In this document: piece after piece, positions 573-6,491 of the stretch
Layout: every line of letters starts with the position of its first letter
Numbering within the stretch: the first letter of the stretch is position 1
Source of the DNA: Actinomycetes bacterium
GTDB taxonomy: Bacteria; Actinomycetota; Acidimicrobiia; Acidimicrobiales; Palsa-688
Direction of reading: 5' to 3'
Assembly: GCA_021811865.1 (NCBI GenBank)
Contig: JAKAQB010000039.1
Location: 1-34,301 of the forward strand
Length of the DNA stretch: 34,301 bases
Made by a program: the position numbers and the translations under genes
The notes under the pieces: model-generated
Databases searched by the model: none
What the model was told of the DNA's origin: nothing
The model's input: only the letters and a program-made list of their open reading frames with translations

Positions 573-2829
573 CTGAGAACCCAGGCGCGGTGGCCGCCGA
601 GGTCCAGCGTCTGCGGGCGGAGCTGGCGGCGGCGCGAGCGGAGATCGCTCGGCTGCAGGAGGGCAATCAACGCCTGCGGGCAGCCCCGGTCGAGCCGGCT
701 GCGCCCGAGCGGGGCTGGATGGGGGCGCATCGCTCCGAGCGTGCCCCGAGGCTGTTCCCCGCTGACGAGGTGGGCGTGGTGGATGCCACCTCCGCCCGCG
801 AGGACAAGTCCGCCTCTTCCTGGCGCTGTTCGCCGGCCGGGCCGACGTCTACGCCGAGCGCTGGGAGAACCCGTCCACCAGGCGGTCCGGGTGGTCGCCG
901 GTGACCCTCGACGGGCGCCGCCCCCAGGGCCTTCGCCGCTACGCCCCGTTGGACGACGCAGTGCTCGGCGCGCACCTCTCGGGGCGCGTCACGGCGGGCG
1001 TGTACCCGCTGATCGACGGCGACCGCTGCTGGTTCCTCGCCTGCGACTTCGACAAGGGCACCTGGGGCCCTCGACGCGTTGGCGTTCCTCGAGGTCCGCG
1101 ACGACGTCGGCGTGCCGGCCTGCCTCGAGCGGTCACGCTCGGGCAACGGCGCGCACGTCTGGGTGTTCTTCGACGAGCCGGTCGAGGCTGCCGTCGCACG
1201 CCGGCTCGGCACCGGGCTGTTGCGTGAGACGATGGCGGTCCGCGCCGAGGTGGACCTCACGAGCTACGACCGGCTCTTCCCCTCCCAGGACTTCGTGCCG
1301 CAGAAGGGGTTCGGGAACCTGATCGCCCTCCCGCTCCAGGGCACCTCCCGCAAGCAAGCCAACACGGTCTTCCTCGACCCGGCGTCGATGACGGCCTGGC
1401 CCGACCAGTGGGCTTTCCTCTCGGCGGTCCGGCCCCGCCGGTGGTCACCGCCACCCTCGAGGCGATGCTGGCGGTCGACCGGATCGGCCTGCCCCCGGCG
1501 CTCGTCGCCTCGCTCAAGCACCTCGCCTCGTTGCACAACCCCGAGCTCCACCAGCGCGAGCAGCTCCGGCTCTCGACGTGGAACACCCCGAGGATGGTCC
1601 GCTGCTACGACGAGGACCTCGACCGCCTCTACCTCCCCCGGGGCTTGCTCGACGACGCCGCAAGGGTCGTCGAAGCAGCCGGCAGCCGCCTCGAGGTCGA
1701 CGACCGGCGCCCGACGGCCCCGGTCCTGGAGCTCAGCTTCACCGGCGAGCTCAGCGCCGCCCAGACCGACGCCGTCGCGACGCTCGCCAACCACGACCTC
1801 GGCCTCCTCGTGGCGCCGGCGGGTGCGGGCAAGACCGTCATGGCCTGCGCGCTCATCGCCCGCCTCGCCACGCCGACCCTCGTCCTGGTGCACACCAAGC
1901 CCCTCGCCGAGCAGTGGCGCCGACGGCTCGGCGACCTGCTCGGCCTGAAGCGGCGCGAGATCGGCCAGCTCGGTGCCGGACGGACCCGCCGCAGCGGGAT
2001 CGTCGACCTCGTCACCCTCCAGACCCTGGCCCGCCACGACGACGCTGCCGAGGTCTTCTGTGGCTACGGGCTCGTCGTTGTCGACGAATGCCACCACCTG
2101 CCGGCGGTGACCTTCGAGCGCTGCGTCCGCGTCGCCACCAACCGCCGCTTCATTGGCCTCACCGCCACCCCCCGCCGACATGATGCCCTCGAAGGCATCC
2201 TCCATATGCAACTCGGGCCGATCCGGCACACGATGAGCGACGACGCCACGATGGCGCTCACCCGCCGGGACCTCGTCGTCCACGACACCCTCACCGACCC
2301 CGACGCGCCCGAGGACGCCGGAGTCCAGACCATTCTCGGCCTGGTGGCCGCCGACACCGAGCGCACCCACCAGATCTGCGAAGACGTCGCCGACGCCCAC
2401 CGTCGGGGACGCAACGTCCTCGTCTTCACCGACCGCACCGAGCACCTCGAAGCCCTCCGGGCCGAGCTCAGCGGCCGCCACGGCCTCGACCCGGCCGTGC
2501 TCAAGGGGGGCACCGGGAAGAAACGGCACGCGGCGGTCCTCGACGAGCTGTGCACGAGCGACGTCCCGATCCTCCTCCTCGCCACCGGCGCCTACCTCGG
2601 CGAAGGCTTCGACCTCCCCACCCTCGACACCTTGTTCCTGGCCTTCCCGATCTCGGGGCGCAGCCGGGTCGTCCAGTACGTCGGGCGCGTCACCCGCCCC
2701 CTGCCGGACAAGACCAGCGTCGAGGTCCACGACTACCACGACACCCTCCACCCGCTGCTGCGTCGCATGCACCAGCGCCGCCTCGCCGCCTTGAAGAGCA
2801 TCGGGTTCGTCCCGACCGCGCCGGCGTGA
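569..2829 (+). pseudogene. TOTE-type primase (AEP)-SF2 helicase fusion, frameshifted in its N-terminal half
   Basis: The frame joined from ATG 569 would give about 753 residues. It starts with a short coiled coil (repeated LRAE/LAAARAEIARL). An archaeo-eukaryotic-primase-like domain follows, with DVYAERWEN, the acidic motif ACDFDKGTW, the GNGAHVWVFF motif and SYDRLFPSQD..GFGNLIALPLQ; this resembles the primase of TOTE conflict systems. Then comes LPPALVASLKHLASLHNPE and a full SF2 helicase: Walker A APAGAGKT, DECHH, TATPR, VFTDR and QYVGRVTR. The reading frame shifts near 808 (one base lost after GACAAG), near 1064-1067 (one extra G) and near 1424-1432 (one base lost, or a larger deletion). 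From GTG 1408 to TGA 2829 an intact 473-codon ORF keeps the complete helicase core. Either the gene is decaying and could still make a helicase fragment, or the sequence has local base-calling errors. Confidence 0.75.
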
Positions 2830-2969
2830 CCCCGCCTCGTCGGGCACCCCGGGTGCACGCTCCAGCGAGAACCCGACCGCCGCTGCCCACCGGGCGTCTG
2901 GTCCGCCGGCATGCGCCCCAGCCAGCGGCCACGTCAACGAACGGCACCGGCTCCTCGCAACCGGTGGAC

Positions 2970-2975
2970 TATAAT
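2970..2975 (+). promoter_or_regulatory. -10 element TATAAT of the toxin-antitoxin pair
   Basis: A perfect TATAAT lies 8 nt before ATG 2984 in otherwise GC-rich DNA. With transcription normally starting 6-8 nt after the -10 box, the mRNA would begin at or next to the ATG, so the antitoxin is probably translated from a leaderless transcript. No good -35 is seen. Confidence 0.65.
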
Positions 2976-2983
2976 TCTAGTCG

Positions 2984-3124
2984 ATGACAACGCTGCCGCT
3001 GTCCGAGGTCAAGGCCAGGCTGTCCGAGATCGCCGAAGAGGTGGCGGCCACCCACGAGCGGGTCCGGATCACCAAGAACGGGCGCGCGTACGTGGTGCTC
3101 GTTGCCGGGCGCCAGCGCCCGTAG
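2984..3124 (+). CDS. Phd/YefM-type antitoxin, C-terminally short
   Basis: A 46-residue protein with the Phd/YefM fold signature: LSEVKARLSEIAEEVA, then HERVRITKNGRAYVVLV. This N-terminal half normally dimerises and binds operator DNA. Family members usually go on for another 30-40 residues past the A-x-V-L-V strand (often S-x-D-D-L-E-S-L-E-E-T), and that part neutralises the toxin. Here the frame ends with AGRQRP and TAG 3122-3124. The next gene, a RelE-like toxin, starts 6 nt later. ATG 2984 is chosen because the TATAAT box sits 8 nt upstream. The protein may be a truncated, non-neutralising antitoxin or a naturally minimal one. Confidence 0.7.
   Translation: MTTLPLSEVKARLSEIAEEVAATHERVRITKNGRAYVVLVAGRQRP
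3106..3121 (+). repeat. Perfect hairpin at the antitoxin-toxin junction
   Basis: CGGGCGC-CA-GCGCCCG is a 7-bp perfect stem with a two-base loop (four in practice). It ends one base before the antitoxin TAG and 9 nt before the toxin GTG. There is no T-tract, so a role in limiting toxin translation or in coupling is more likely than termination; this is inference. Confidence 0.45.
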
Positions 3125-3130
3125 TCGCCG

Positions 3131-3397
3131 GTGAGCTTCCGGGTCGTCGTGGCCCGAAGCGCGGCGCGGCGCCTGGCCGAGCACCTGCCCGAGGCGGACG
3201 CCGCGGCGTGCATCGAGCTCGTCTTCGGCCCGCTCGCCGAGGACCCTCGCCGAGTCGGAGCGCCGCTGCGCCAGCCCTTCGAAGGGCAATGGCGGGCCCG
3301 TCGAGGCGAGTACCGGGTCCGCTACCGCATCGACGACGAGACCCGCACCGTCTACGTCCTCGACATCGGCCATCGCCGTGACGCCTACCGCAGCTGA
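3131..3397 (+). CDS. RelE/ParE-superfamily toxin
   Basis: An 88-residue protein with the RelE plan: MSFRVVVARSAARRLAEHLPE (first strand and helix), PLAEDPRRVGAPLRQPFEGQWRARRGEYRVRYRIDDE (central G-x-W-R-x-R-x-G-x-Y-R-V-x-Y core), and VYVLDIGHRRDAYRS (last strand with the basic tail that ends H-R-x-x-Y). Members of this superfamily usually cleave mRNA in the ribosomal A site; the ParE branch instead poisons gyrase. The core and the C-terminal HRRDAYR favour RelE. The start is GTG 3131, right after the antitoxin stop, so expression is probably coupled to it. The toxin looks intact although its partner is short. Confidence 0.8.
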   Translation: MSFRVVVARSAARRLAEHLPEADAAACIELVFGPLAEDPRRVGAPLRQPFEGQWRARRGEYRVRYRIDDETRTVYVLDIGHRRDAYRS

Positions 3398-3484
3398 GAG
3401 CAGCAACGGGTCGAGCTTGGGGTGAAGCCGGTTGCGGCCAGGGGCGCGGATCAGGCAGCCGGTGCGGCTCCCAGCCCGCCTGCG

Positions 3485-3490
3485 TATGCT
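3485..3490 (+). promoter_or_regulatory. -10 element TATGCT of the MgtE-N/Nramp operon
   Basis: TATGCT lies 6 nt before GTG 3497, where the PRC-barrel domain begins. This supports GTG 3497, not GTG 3422, as the start and suggests a leaderless mRNA. Confidence 0.55.
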
Positions 3491-3496
3491 CGCCCC

Positions 3497-4774
3497 GTGC
3501 AGTTGTCGGTGTTGCTCGGCGCGCCGTTGTTGTCGCCCAACGGAGAGGCCGTCGGCAAGCTCGACGATCTCGTCGTCCGCCTTCGCGGCGGCGACTATCC
3601 GCTCGCCACGGGTCTCGTCGCCGTCGTGGGCCATCGCCGGGTGTTCGTCCCCTACGAGCGGGTTGCCCAACTGGGGGACCACCGGGTCCCCCTCACCGCC
3701 GCGAACATCGACCTCCGGAGCTTCGAGAGGCGGGAGGGCGAGGTCCTGCTCCGCCACGACGTGCTCGGCCACCGCCTCATCGACGTGCCCGAGACGGAGC
3801 TGGTCAAGGCCTCCGACGTGATCCTCGAGGTCCGATCCGAGGGGTGCGTGGTCGTCGGCGTGGACACGCGCCGGCCGGCGCGGTGGTTGGGGCTGCGCCC
3901 CGCGGTCGGCGGGACGGTCGAGGACTGGAAGAACTTCGAGCCGCTCATCGGCCACCAGCCCAGCGCCACCGCCCGCGGCGTGTTCGGCAGGCTGCGCCGG
4001 CTCAAGCCGGCGCAGATCGCCGACCTGATCGAGGACGCCTCCCGCCAGGAGGGCAACGAGCTGATCGAGGCTGTCCACGGTGACCCCGAGCTCGAGGCGG
4101 ACGTCTTCGAGGAGCTCGATCCGGACACGGCCAACCGCTTCTTCGGCGAGAAGTCGGACGGCGAGGTCGCAGACGTCCTCACGCACATGCGCCCCGACGA
4201 CGCCGCCGACGCCATCACGAACCTTCCCCAGGGGCGGCGGCAGGTGGTGCTCAACCGGCTGCCCGCCGGTACCCGCACGAAGCTCATGATGCTGCTCGGC
4301 TACAACTCGTCCAGCGCCGGCGGCCTCATGAACCTCGAGTTCGTCACCTGCCCGATCGACGCCCAAATCAGCGATGCTCTCCGCCGGCTCCGGGCCGCCC
4401 AGAATGCCGAGCCGCAGGCCCTCACCGCCGTCCACGTCCTGGACCCCGCCGGCCGGCTCGTCGGCGTCGCCTCCCTCACTGCCCTTCTCGTCGCCGACCC
4501 CGACAGCCCCGTCGGCGACGTCATGGACGACGACCCCGTCCGGGTCGACGCGCAGACCGACGTCGTCGATATCGCGCTGCTCATGGCGGACTACAACCTG
4601 CTGACCGTGCCCGTCGTCGACCGCGGCGACGAGGTTCTCGGCATCGTGACCGTCGACGACGTGCTCGAGGCGATCATCCCCGAGGACTGGCGGCGCCGAG
4701 AACCCCAACCGCGCCCTACCCCTTCCGCCGAGGAGTCCCAACCGGGGCCGGCGGCCACGGCGCCGCCGGGCTGA
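3497..4774 (+). CDS. Soluble PRC-barrel / MgtE N-domain / CBS protein, likely regulator of the adjacent transporter
   Basis: A 425-residue protein from GTG 3497; an in-frame GTG at 3422 adds 25 low-complexity residues. Residues 1-75 form a PRC-barrel-like module (GAPLLSPNGEAVGKLDDLVV) and a second related module may lie at 80-140. Residues 165-265 are an MgtE intracellular N domain (LKPAQIADLIEDA, FEELDPDTANRFF, VLTHMRPDDAADAI), followed by SSAGGLMN as in MgtE. Residues 280-395 form a CBS pair (VGDVMDDDPVRVDA, YNLLTVPVVDRGDEVLGIVTVDDVLEAI). No membrane segment follows, so the MgtE pore is missing. In MgtE these cytosolic domains sense Mg2+ and gate the channel. The Nramp-like gene starts 4 nt after this stop, so the inferred role is a Mg2+ sensor acting in trans on that transporter. 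The acidic, Pro-rich tail has no known role. Confidence 0.85.
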   Translation: MQLSVLLGAPLLSPNGEAVGKLDDLVVRLRGGDYPLATGLVAVVGHRRVFVPYERVAQLGDHRVPLTAANIDLRSFERREGEVLLRHDVLGHRLIDVPETELVKASDVILEVRSEGCVVVGVDTRRPARWLGLRPAVGGTVEDWKNFEPLIGHQPSATARGVFGRLRRLKPAQIADLIEDASRQEGNELIEAVHGDPELEADVFEELDPDTANRFFGEKSDGEVADVLTHMRPDDAADAITNLPQGRRQVVLNRLPAGTRTKLMMLLGYNSSSAGGLMNLEFVTCPIDAQISDALRRLRAAQNAEPQALTAVHVLDPAGRLVGVASLTALLVADPDSPVGDVMDDDPVRVDAQTDVVDIALLMADYNLLTVPVVDRGDEVLGIVTVDDVLEAIIPEDWRRREPQPRPTPSAEESQPGPAATAPPG

Positions 4775-4778
4775 TCCG

Positions 4779-6491
4779 ATGACCGACCGACCCACCCACC
4801 GGGACGAGCGGCCGTCGGTGGGTGGGTCGGACCCGCCCAACCGGGCGGCCGGGCGCCAACCGACACCGCCGACGCGCCCGGCGCCCGCGTCCGCCGTGCT
4901 CGACGCTGCACACGAGGGCGACATCGAAGGGGCCTTCGGCCGTATACCCGTCGGCGACGTCGACGCCCGCACTACGTGGCGCCAACGGCTCGTGACCCTG
5001 GCCGCCATAGTCGGGCCAGGCATCATCGTCATGGTCGGCGACAATGACGCTGGCGGCGTCTCTACCTACGCCCAGGCCGGCCAGAACTACCACACGAGCC
5101 TTCTCTGGACGCTCCTGCTACTCATCCCGGTGCTCGTGGTCAACCAGGAGATGGTCGTGCGCCTCGGCGCGGTGACCGGCGTGGGCCACGCCCGGCTGAT
5201 CAACGAGCGCTTCGGCAGGGGATGGGGGGCGTTCAGCGTCGGCGACCTGTTCGTCCTCAACTTCCTCACGATCGTCACCGAGTTCATCGGCATCGCTCTC
5301 GGCGCCGACTACTTCGGGGTCTCCCGGGACATCGCTGTGCCTGTCGCCGCCGTCGCCCTCGTTGCCATCACCGCGTCCGGCAGCTTCGCCCGGTGGGAGC
5401 GGGCGATGTTCGTGTTCATCGCCGTGAGCGTGCTGCAGGCGCCGATGCTCTTCCTGTCCCGCCCGCACTGGCGCACCATCGCCAGGGACTTCGTCGTCCC
5501 GGGTATCAGCGGCGGCTTCCACTCCACCGCCGTCCTCCTCATCATCGCCATCGTCGGGACGACGGTGGCGCCGTGGCAGTTGTTCTTCCAGCAGTCGAAC
5601 GTCATCGACAAGCGCATCACACCCCGGTTCATGAACTACGAGCGCGCCGACACCGTCATCGGGGCGGTCGTCGTCGTCCTCGGAGCGGCGGCACTCATGG
5701 TGACAGCCAACTACGGGGCCTCGGGAACCTCCGCCTTCGGGCACTTCACCTCAGCGCTCGGCGTAGCCAGGCTCCTCGGCCACCGGGGCAGCGGCCTGGG
5801 CACGATCTTCGCCATCGTCCTCATGGACGCGAGCATCATCGGGGCGTCGGCGGTGACGTTGTCGACGAGCTACGCGTTCGGCGATGTCTTCGGGATCCAC
5901 CACTCCCTGCACCGGACATTCCGCGAAGCACGGTCCTTCTACCTGTCGTACGCGGCGATGGTGCTCCTCGCCGCCGGGATCGTGCTGATCCCGGGTGCGC
6001 CCCTCGGGCTGATCACGACCAGCGTTCAGGCGCTGGCCGGCCTGCTGCTGCCGTCGGCGGCGGTGTTCCTGCTCCTGCTCTGCAACGACCGTGAGGTGCT
6101 CGGGCCGTGGGTCAACCCGACCTGGCTCAACGCGCTGGCCGCCCTCATCATCGGTGTCCTCCTCGTCCTGTCGGGGACGCTCATGGCGACGACTCTCTTC
6201 CCCCATGTCAACGTGGCGCTGATCTCCGAGATCCTGGCGGGAAGCCTGGCCGTGGGTGGCGCCGCGGCCTTTGTCGTGGTCCGCGCCGCCTCGCACCCGG
6301 CGGAGCGCCAGGTGGCGCCGACAACCACCCCCGAACAGAAGCTGTCCTGGCGCATGCCGCCCCTGGCCCTGCTCCGGCCCGTTCGCTGGTCCCCGGGGAC
6401 CCGCCTGGGCATGCTGTCCCTGCGGGCCTACCTGGTCCTCTCCGCCGTGCTGCTCGTGGTGAAGGCCATCCAGCTCGGCAGCGGTCACTGA
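4779..6491 (+). CDS. Nramp-superfamily divalent metal transporter, non-classical (NRMT-like)
   Basis: A 570-residue membrane protein with about 11-12 hydrophobic segments after a Pro-rich N-tail of some 70 residues. It has the Nramp layout, but the metal-site motifs differ from those of MntH/DMT1. TM1 reads GDNDAGG (residues 87-93) where classical Nramps have DPGN, and TM6 reads TTVAPWQ (261-267) where they have the A-x-x-MPH motif, so the conserved Met and His become Ala and Trp. In the family that Met favours Mn/Fe over Mg/Ca, and Nramp-related Mg transporters (NRMTs) lack it, so Mg2+ (perhaps Mn2+) is the likely substrate. The gene follows the MgtE-N/CBS gene by 4 nt. Its TGA overlaps the 3' end of the convergent ogt gene by 7 nt. 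Confidence 0.85.

Follow-up and report, generated by a model that had tools for sequence, protein, structure and literature searches.

A pore-less MgtE-type sensor gene beside an NRMT-type transporter gene in an actinomycete contig: a candidate two-component Mg2+ uptake system

We studied a stretch of 34,301 nucleotides (nt) from an Actinomycetes bacterium (GenBank assembly GCA_021811865.1, contig JAKAQB010000039.1), referred to as the window. It carries two adjacent genes, i.e., one for a soluble protein with PRC-, MgtE_N- and CBS-type parts (the sensor) and one for an Nramp-fold transporter of the NRMT (or NrmT) type. Both are listed with their features in Table 1.

The gene pair and its ion-site residues

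Between the sensor stop and the transporter start lie 4 nt. The third-position G+C content of the two open reading frames (ORFs; 0.93 for the sensor, 0.91 for the transporter) in a window of 73% G+C fits real genes. This arrangement, i.e., a soluble PRC/MgtE-N/CBS protein followed 4 nt later by an Nramp-fold protein, had been proposed by a sequence-only reading of the window. ORF and Pfam analysis confirm both members, with a PRC match of 20.3 bits slightly under the Pfam cut-off of 21.2.

Table 1. Features of the gene pair in window coordinates (aa, amino acids; TM, transmembrane helix).
Feature	Position	Strand	Basis and details
Sensor gene	3497-4774	+	GTG start, 425 aa; ORF and Pfam matches
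Transporter gene	4779-6491	+	ATG start, 570 aa; ORF and Pfam Nramp
TATGCT, putative -10-like hexamer	3485-3490	+	ends 6 nt before GTG; read from the sequence
N-terminal region, two PRC-barrel-like units (residues 1-143)	3497-3925	+	Pfam PRC sub-threshold; model strands 10-66, 82-143
MgtE_N domain (residues 169-270)	4001-4306	+	Pfam 69.2 bits; D202, D234, D238
CBS pair (model residues about 274-393)	4316-4675	+	Pfam, AlphaFold2 model, ligand mapping
TM1 ion-site motif DAGG, D90-G93 (DxxG of NRMTs)	5046-5057	+	within GDNDAGG
TM6 ion-site motif TTVA, T261-A264 (TxxA of NRMTs)	5559-5570	+	within TTVAPWQ; replaces the transition-metal Met

Besides MgtE_N, Pfam recognises CBS in two stretches of the sensor (67.2 bits); apart from the PRC match, the only other one is a sub-threshold FliG_M. 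In the AlphaFold2 model, with a mean predicted local distance difference test score (pLDDT) of 86.4, two N-terminal beta-rich units precede the helical MgtE_N domain and the CBS pair. The weak Pfam match and these modelled units suggest a PRC-like identity of the N-terminal part, which was barely probed by the fold search since only residues 242-400 were well covered.

We mapped the known ligand positions of MgtE onto the sensor. In MgtE_N, D202 corresponds to E59 (Mg7), D234 to D91 (Mg4) and D238 to D95 (Mg6). In the CBS pair, D388 corresponds to D247 (Mg4), with N367 at the position of D226 (Mg5) and L368 at that of F227 (ATP). The Mg4, Mg6 and Mg7 positions are each acidic in all 74 related sensors. 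Among the 56 acidic positions of TtMgtE, acidity of at least 99% is seen at 4 of the 8 ligand positions compared with 5 of the 48 other positions. The plug-helix acids E258 and D259 are replaced by arginine in 73/74 and 71/74 sensors, respectively (both in the window), and the ATP-site residues R187, D188 and F227 read T, A and L in the window sensor. The 425-aa protein, which ends shortly past the CBS pair, lacks the transmembrane pore domain of MgtE, where the Mg1 aspartate D432 resides; the segment after the pair carries a PxxWRR motif. The residue pattern supports the identification of the partner as an MgtE sensor region without a pore, as the sequence-only reading had it, and shows that Mg2+ ligands are conserved in it.

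The transporter matches Pfam Nramp with 250.4 bits. Its best solved relative is EleNRMT of Eggerthella lenta (PDB 7qia; 203.6 bits, E 4.8e-59), while the next distinct PDB sequence scores 62 bits. The published ion-site signature of NRMTs is DxxG-TxxA/T (PMC8806188). The window motifs, which are exactly as quoted before and had been regarded as unusual, are thus the mark of a known clade, and the earlier assignment to NRMT-type transporters without the transition-metal Met holds. We compared the best 80 of 574 confirmed relatives, referred to as close loci. They read DNDAGG in 79/80 cases and DNDAGA in one, and TTVAPWQ in 80/80. The NRMT/NrmT type of the window transporter is supported by these sequence matches.

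The transporter is of a long form that carries VLDxAHxGDIxGAxG as an N-terminal motif and, towards the C-terminus, two additional helices (479-504 and 539-567) that are modelled past the EleNRMT-aligned region (AlphaFold2; pLDDT 83.3, predicted template modelling score 0.84). We considered the N-terminal motif and the C-terminal loop as sensor-docking sites and dropped the idea, because the motif occurs in two loci without a sensor nearby (L130, L131) and both elements are absent from sensor-paired short NRMTs. That is, they are clade markers only.

Conservation of the pairing and forms of the partner

A same-strand upstream sensor match is found in 75 of the 80 close loci. In the remaining five, either the transporter lies at the edge of the available stretch (L008, L020, L042, L043) or a copy stands without a sensor alongside (L022). 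In 73 of the 76 testable close loci, a full sensor precedes the transporter at a distance of at most 708 nt; one locus (L056) has a sensor reduced to a 77-aa fragment, and another (L071) shows a gap of 2,110 nt. If the transporter start is assigned to the first start codon met when reading on from a point 30 nt ahead of the sensor stop, a rule that favours short spacings, the spacing is -4 in 39/75 loci and within -30 to +20 in 57/75. Taking the start nearest to the homology start instead gives 35/75 and 51/75, respectively. These loci being close relatives, their pairing proves little by itself.

Two wider genome sets were used, namely 149 genomes from the phylum of the genome of L001 (set A) and 121 genomes from the phylum of the genome of L077 (set B). 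Transporter matches of at least 290 bits were called NRMT-like; this line was fixed after the results for set A were known. We counted sensor rows that resemble full sensors (56 in set A, 62 in set B) and excluded canonical-MgtE-like and lone CBS rows; checked by eye among the rows listed, the exclusion changed no verdict for any listed NRMT. For set B, transporters were taken up to E 1e-60 and sensors up to 1e-15. Two tandem transporters of one genome (G249) share one counted sensor, and a further draw of 100 genomes, all but G002 already in set A, was not counted.

Among the matches listed for set A, a sensor lies within 2 kb of 31/42 NRMT-like matches and of 0/28 weaker Nramp-related matches. 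The corresponding values for set B are 41/68 and, under the line, 1/10. An adjacency that is conserved well past close relatives, though not universally, is supported by these counts. Four matches above the line are without the NRMT signature (L137, L138, L144 and L136, the last with an unreadable TM1), and their sensor is missing or partial.

A reading of the weaker set A matches as canonical Nramps was rejected since only 3/28 show DPGN/MPH. One (L192) is formally DxxG/TxxT and the rest have other motifs, i.e., they are other Nramp relatives. Loci L185-L212 comprise several such Nramp-like groups that have no sensor nearby; DDDPSG/TTIS, GPGT/TTVV and DTDAGS/AVIM are among their motifs.

The sensor next to an NRMT gene takes more than one form. 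In twelve loci (L105-L116), whose transporters are 45-58% identical to EleNRMT, the upstream gene encodes 600-666 aa with 4-5 hydrophobic segments, laid out as PRC, MgtE_N and CBS plus an MgtE-like membrane part; Pfam did not recognise the membrane part in the two that were scanned (L105, L106). The pore residue D432 is absent from all 13 MgtE-like partners (these twelve and L134, most of them beside short-form NRMTs) as well as from 3/3 related proteins (P0251-P0253), and the plug-helix residues E258 and D259 are retained in 13/13. Since D432 is lost and mutation at the Mg1 site of MgtE abolishes conductance (PMC5882242), these membrane partners are probably dead pores.

In three further loci (L127-L129), the transporters share 95, 91 and 88% identity with EleNRMT, and the PRC/MgtE_N/CBS partner has a lone hydrophobic helix at its C-terminus. 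In a sensor tree of 76 rows (every third window-clade sensor included), these partners sit inside a supported branch together with the 600-aa forms. The suggestion of a pore loss, as opposed to a gain, rests on this grouping, with the root placed at the midpoint. Hydropathy gave no membrane tail for the window-type sensors or for L117-L126. Judged by these forms, the pore appears dispensable beside NRMTs, while the sensor is kept.

A stand-alone PRC-like ORF of 192-208 aa follows just downstream of the NRMT gene in L107, L110, L112, L133 and L135; the one of these five that was scanned (L110) is a Pfam PRC match. Two of the twelve transporters of L105-L116 (L111:4415-5653 and L113:4022-5263) read GNGASG or GIGASG in TM1, i.e., without the binding-site Asp.

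We also inspected 20 stretches around sensors without a listed NRMT. Two of them are NRMT-paired after all (L161, L162) and one has a broken sensor (L164). All of the other 17 show a DUF1003 (PF06210) neighbour, identified with Pfam in four and, in the remainder, with a model based on the four. With three loci of set A (L213-L215), where a same-strand DUF1003 match lies beside or overlaps the sensor ORF, this makes 20/20 overall (L145-L160, L163, L213-L215). The 17 DUF1003-type rows form one side of a branch of the sensor tree with support 100/100. The Mg4, Mg6 and Mg7 positions are mostly retained in 19 DUF1003-class rows, a count that includes L161 and L162. Among open PMC papers, we found none that joins DUF1003 and MgtE, or PRC-barrel and MgtE. 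The pairing offers a hint at what DUF1003, a family without assigned function in Pfam, may do. In one of these loci (L146), DUF1003 is followed by a P-loop NTPase (Pfam ParA/NUBPL), which we take to be of the Mrp kind. The broken sensor of L164 (Mycobacterium lepraemurium) is of the DUF1003 type and split across frames, apparently a decayed gene.

M-box riboswitches, substrate and regulation

Rfam M-box riboswitches were found in 10/45 scanned loci, and a model built from those ten identifies M-boxes in 15/76 close loci. Seven of the 76 (L010, L024, L029, L053, L061, L062, L073) have the M-box in the same direction as the sensor or the NRMT gene and under 800 nt ahead of it. In four others (L034, L004, L056, L009), a same-strand M-box lies farther upstream, at 1.7 to 4.5 kb from the pair, and possibly leads a longer operon. 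The last four of the 15 have it elsewhere or on the opposite strand. A second set of 56 loci yielded 8 M-box matches, with none in its 18 DUF1003 loci; by eye, M-boxes lie upstream of the NRMT gene in L131 and in seven short-form NRMT loci. One M-box operon also shows a c-di-GMP-II riboswitch (L120:5109-5174, 57.7 bits) about 200 nt downstream of its NRMT gene.

According to Shin et al., an M-box is the hallmark of the Mg2+-specific NrmT members (PMC4072509). Mg2+ is therefore the likeliest substrate of the clade, given the M-boxes of the relatives, and we infer that it is also the main substrate of the window protein. For mycobacterial M-boxes, a 2026 study lists an mgtE type and a 'manganese-type' upstream of predicted metal transporters (PMC12810186); the pair described here may be among the latter genes.

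We consider it rather probable that the window encodes a Mg2+ carrier and, as a separate protein, an MgtE-derived sensor that controls it by feedback. The two genes would then form one Mg2+ uptake unit. Its NRMT-type Slc11 carrier would pass partly hydrated Mg2+ down the gradient, and by analogy with EleNRMT it is probably not H+-coupled. In a replete cytosol, the MgtE_N and CBS parts of the soluble sensor would bind Mg2+ between them, and the Mg2+-bound sensor would change its arrangement and thereby slow the carrier. Docking of the sensor on the carrier or the membrane may be the task of the N-terminal PRC units. Gene order, family membership, conserved ligands, conserved pairing and the M-boxes of relatives are observed; contact of the sensor with the carrier, the direction of the regulation and the part played by the PRC units are inferred from them.

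Several observations weigh against such feedback. No sensor is near 11/42 (set A, among the matches listed) and 27/68 (set B) NRMT-like matches, i.e., the co-occurrence that the sequence-only reading had named as a check holds for a part of the family only. The fusions named along with it did not turn up: a search with both window proteins joined (20 proteins listed) gave no real sensor-NRMT fusion, although it takes its words from the first 500 residues and could miss distant ones. Within the sensors, Mg5 is altered (D226 to N in 72/74) and the Mg2/Mg3 ligands and the ATP site are gone, so that the gating geometry of MgtE is not simply transferable. The window contains neither an M-box (RF00380) nor any other Rfam match, and our own M-box model, run with filters off, reaches at best 6.1 bits in window 2600-5200. 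Moreover, NrmT gave Mg2+ transport and growth without the MgtE-like gene. Co-expression of the Acidobacterium capsulatum pair brought no added rescue, and the NrmT of this species fully rescued a Mn2+ defect, whereas its rescue of a Mg2+ defect required Mg2+ in the low millimolar range (PMC4072509). This is the only published co-expression test that we found, and its transporter behaves as one of the Mn2+ type.

The sole listed protein of the fusion search with both Pfam domains (P0244) was rejected as a fusion, its frame being broken between the domains and again inside the transporter. In four other proteins (P0247, P0246, P0249, P0250; one member sequence each), the sensor is joined to unrelated domains. 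One of them, P0247, combines a major-facilitator transporter and a full sensor in 843 aa on a 2.3-Mb contig, which may reflect read-through, misassembly or a real fusion.

Alternatively, the pair could be co-expressed and serve Mg2+ homeostasis with no contact between the proteins, the sensor being a Mg2+ buffer or chaperone or acting on another target. This would agree with the growth supported by NrmT alone and with the chaperone activity that Shin et al. name as an alternative (PMC4072509). It would also fit the different membrane protein, DUF1003, that adjoins related sensors, and the M-box between sensor and NRMT gene in L062 and L073, because of which the two genes may there be led separately. 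We nevertheless regard it as unlikely, given a pairing that recurs in two genome sets with three partner forms and a stop-start spacing that is short or overlapping in most close loci. A different substrate is quite improbable in our view, i.e., a transporter mainly for Mn2+ (or Mn2+ and Fe2+) whose partner responds to Mn2+ or to some other ligand, as has been deduced for the A. capsulatum pair. The M-boxes leading close-clade members (e.g., L010, L024, L029, L061) and the ion-site motifs identical in 79/80 speak against it. Yet the A. capsulatum NrmT shows its Mn2+ phenotype with an MgtE-like gene and without an M-box (PMC4072509), the window likewise has no M-box, and Mn2+ is transported by EleNRMT as well (PMC8806188).

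We give very little weight to a CBS pair that senses an adenine nucleotide instead of Mg2+, which would make the transporter an energy-gated carrier. Judging by title, many of the CBS structures retrieved by the fold search contain a bound nucleotide, and MgtE itself binds ATP (PMC5529423). However, the ATP residues of MgtE are lost from the related sensors, with F227 changed to L in 73/74 and R187 gone in 74/74.

Beyond the feedback reading for the window, we tentatively propose PRC/MgtE_N/CBS as an exchangeable Mg2+-sensing subunit from or alongside MgtE-like channels. It would occur fused to a dead MgtE-like pore next to one group of NRMTs, reduced to one membrane helix next to the closest EleNRMT relatives, fully soluble next to the NRMTs of the window type, and reused next to DUF1003, an unrelated membrane protein; NRMTs would be two-component systems. 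If true, DUF1003 would be a component of Mg2+-related transport or permeability, and the NRMT structure and assays so far would be without the regulatory half. Shin et al. did not settle what the MgtE-like neighbour of NrmT does (PMC4072509). EleNRMT is reported not to be coupled to H+ (PMC8806188) and would thus fill the cell with Mg2+ unless gated; a missing sensor subunit would explain its restraint. As a sensor partner is found in the three genomes with the closest EleNRMT relatives seen here, the question is testable with the already purified and reconstituted protein.

Surroundings of the pair and known systems

A leaderless transcript for the pair, also claimed by the sequence-only reading, is plausible. 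The placement of TATGCT shortly before the GTG would fit it; on the other side, a sigma-70 promoter scan of the window returned 0 sites, and an alternative longer in-frame sensor start exists at 3422. None of the flanking genes on either side of the pair bears on metals. Immediately upstream of the sensor, two ORFs (window 2985-3397) look by eye antitoxin-like and RelE-like. DNA-alkylation repair genes lie downstream on the opposite strand.

The gene pair and the regulatory idea have been known since 2014; the sequence-only reading had been unaware of any such system. Shin et al. (PLoS Genet; PMC4072509) reported NrmT genes beside a gene for the MgtE N-terminal cytoplasmic domain, an MgtE-like neighbour being a feature of most NrmT members, and proposed the same mechanism, i.e., cytoplasmic feedback on NrmT by the MgtE-like protein. 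Literature from 2015 on for NrmT, MgtE and magnesium yielded only the EleNRMT paper (PMC8806188). The present analysis adds the pattern of ligand residues, partners with a probable dead pore or a single helix, the partner beside the closest EleNRMT relatives, the window-clade M-boxes and the DUF1003 branch, none of which was found in the literature examined, in a search that is not exhaustive.

The operons of Shin et al. resemble the window in combining an Nramp-related transporter with a separate MgtE-N-like gene. The window differs by its long-form 570-aa transporter and the lack of an M-box, and the accessible parts of that paper contain no mention of a PRC-like N-terminal part as in the window partner. 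With A. capsulatum, whose NrmT is mainly of the Mn2+ type despite the adjacent MgtE-like gene, the window shares the lack of an M-box (PMC4072509). EleNRMT shares the DxxG/TxxA site, with GNDAGG in TM1 compared with DNDAGG in the window. It was studied alone, and the main text of its paper is without the words CBS, operon, subunit, feedback and accessory (PMC8806188). The sensors beside DUF1003 share the architecture of the window sensor; they form a separate branch and have DUF1003 instead of an NRMT as neighbour. Finally, the cytosolic half of TtMgtE (2yvx) matches the window partner with E 1.7e-25, and the Mg4, Mg6 and Mg7 acids are common to both, whereas the partner differs from MgtE in having no pore, changed plug-helix and ATP-site residues, and an extra PRC-like N-terminal part.

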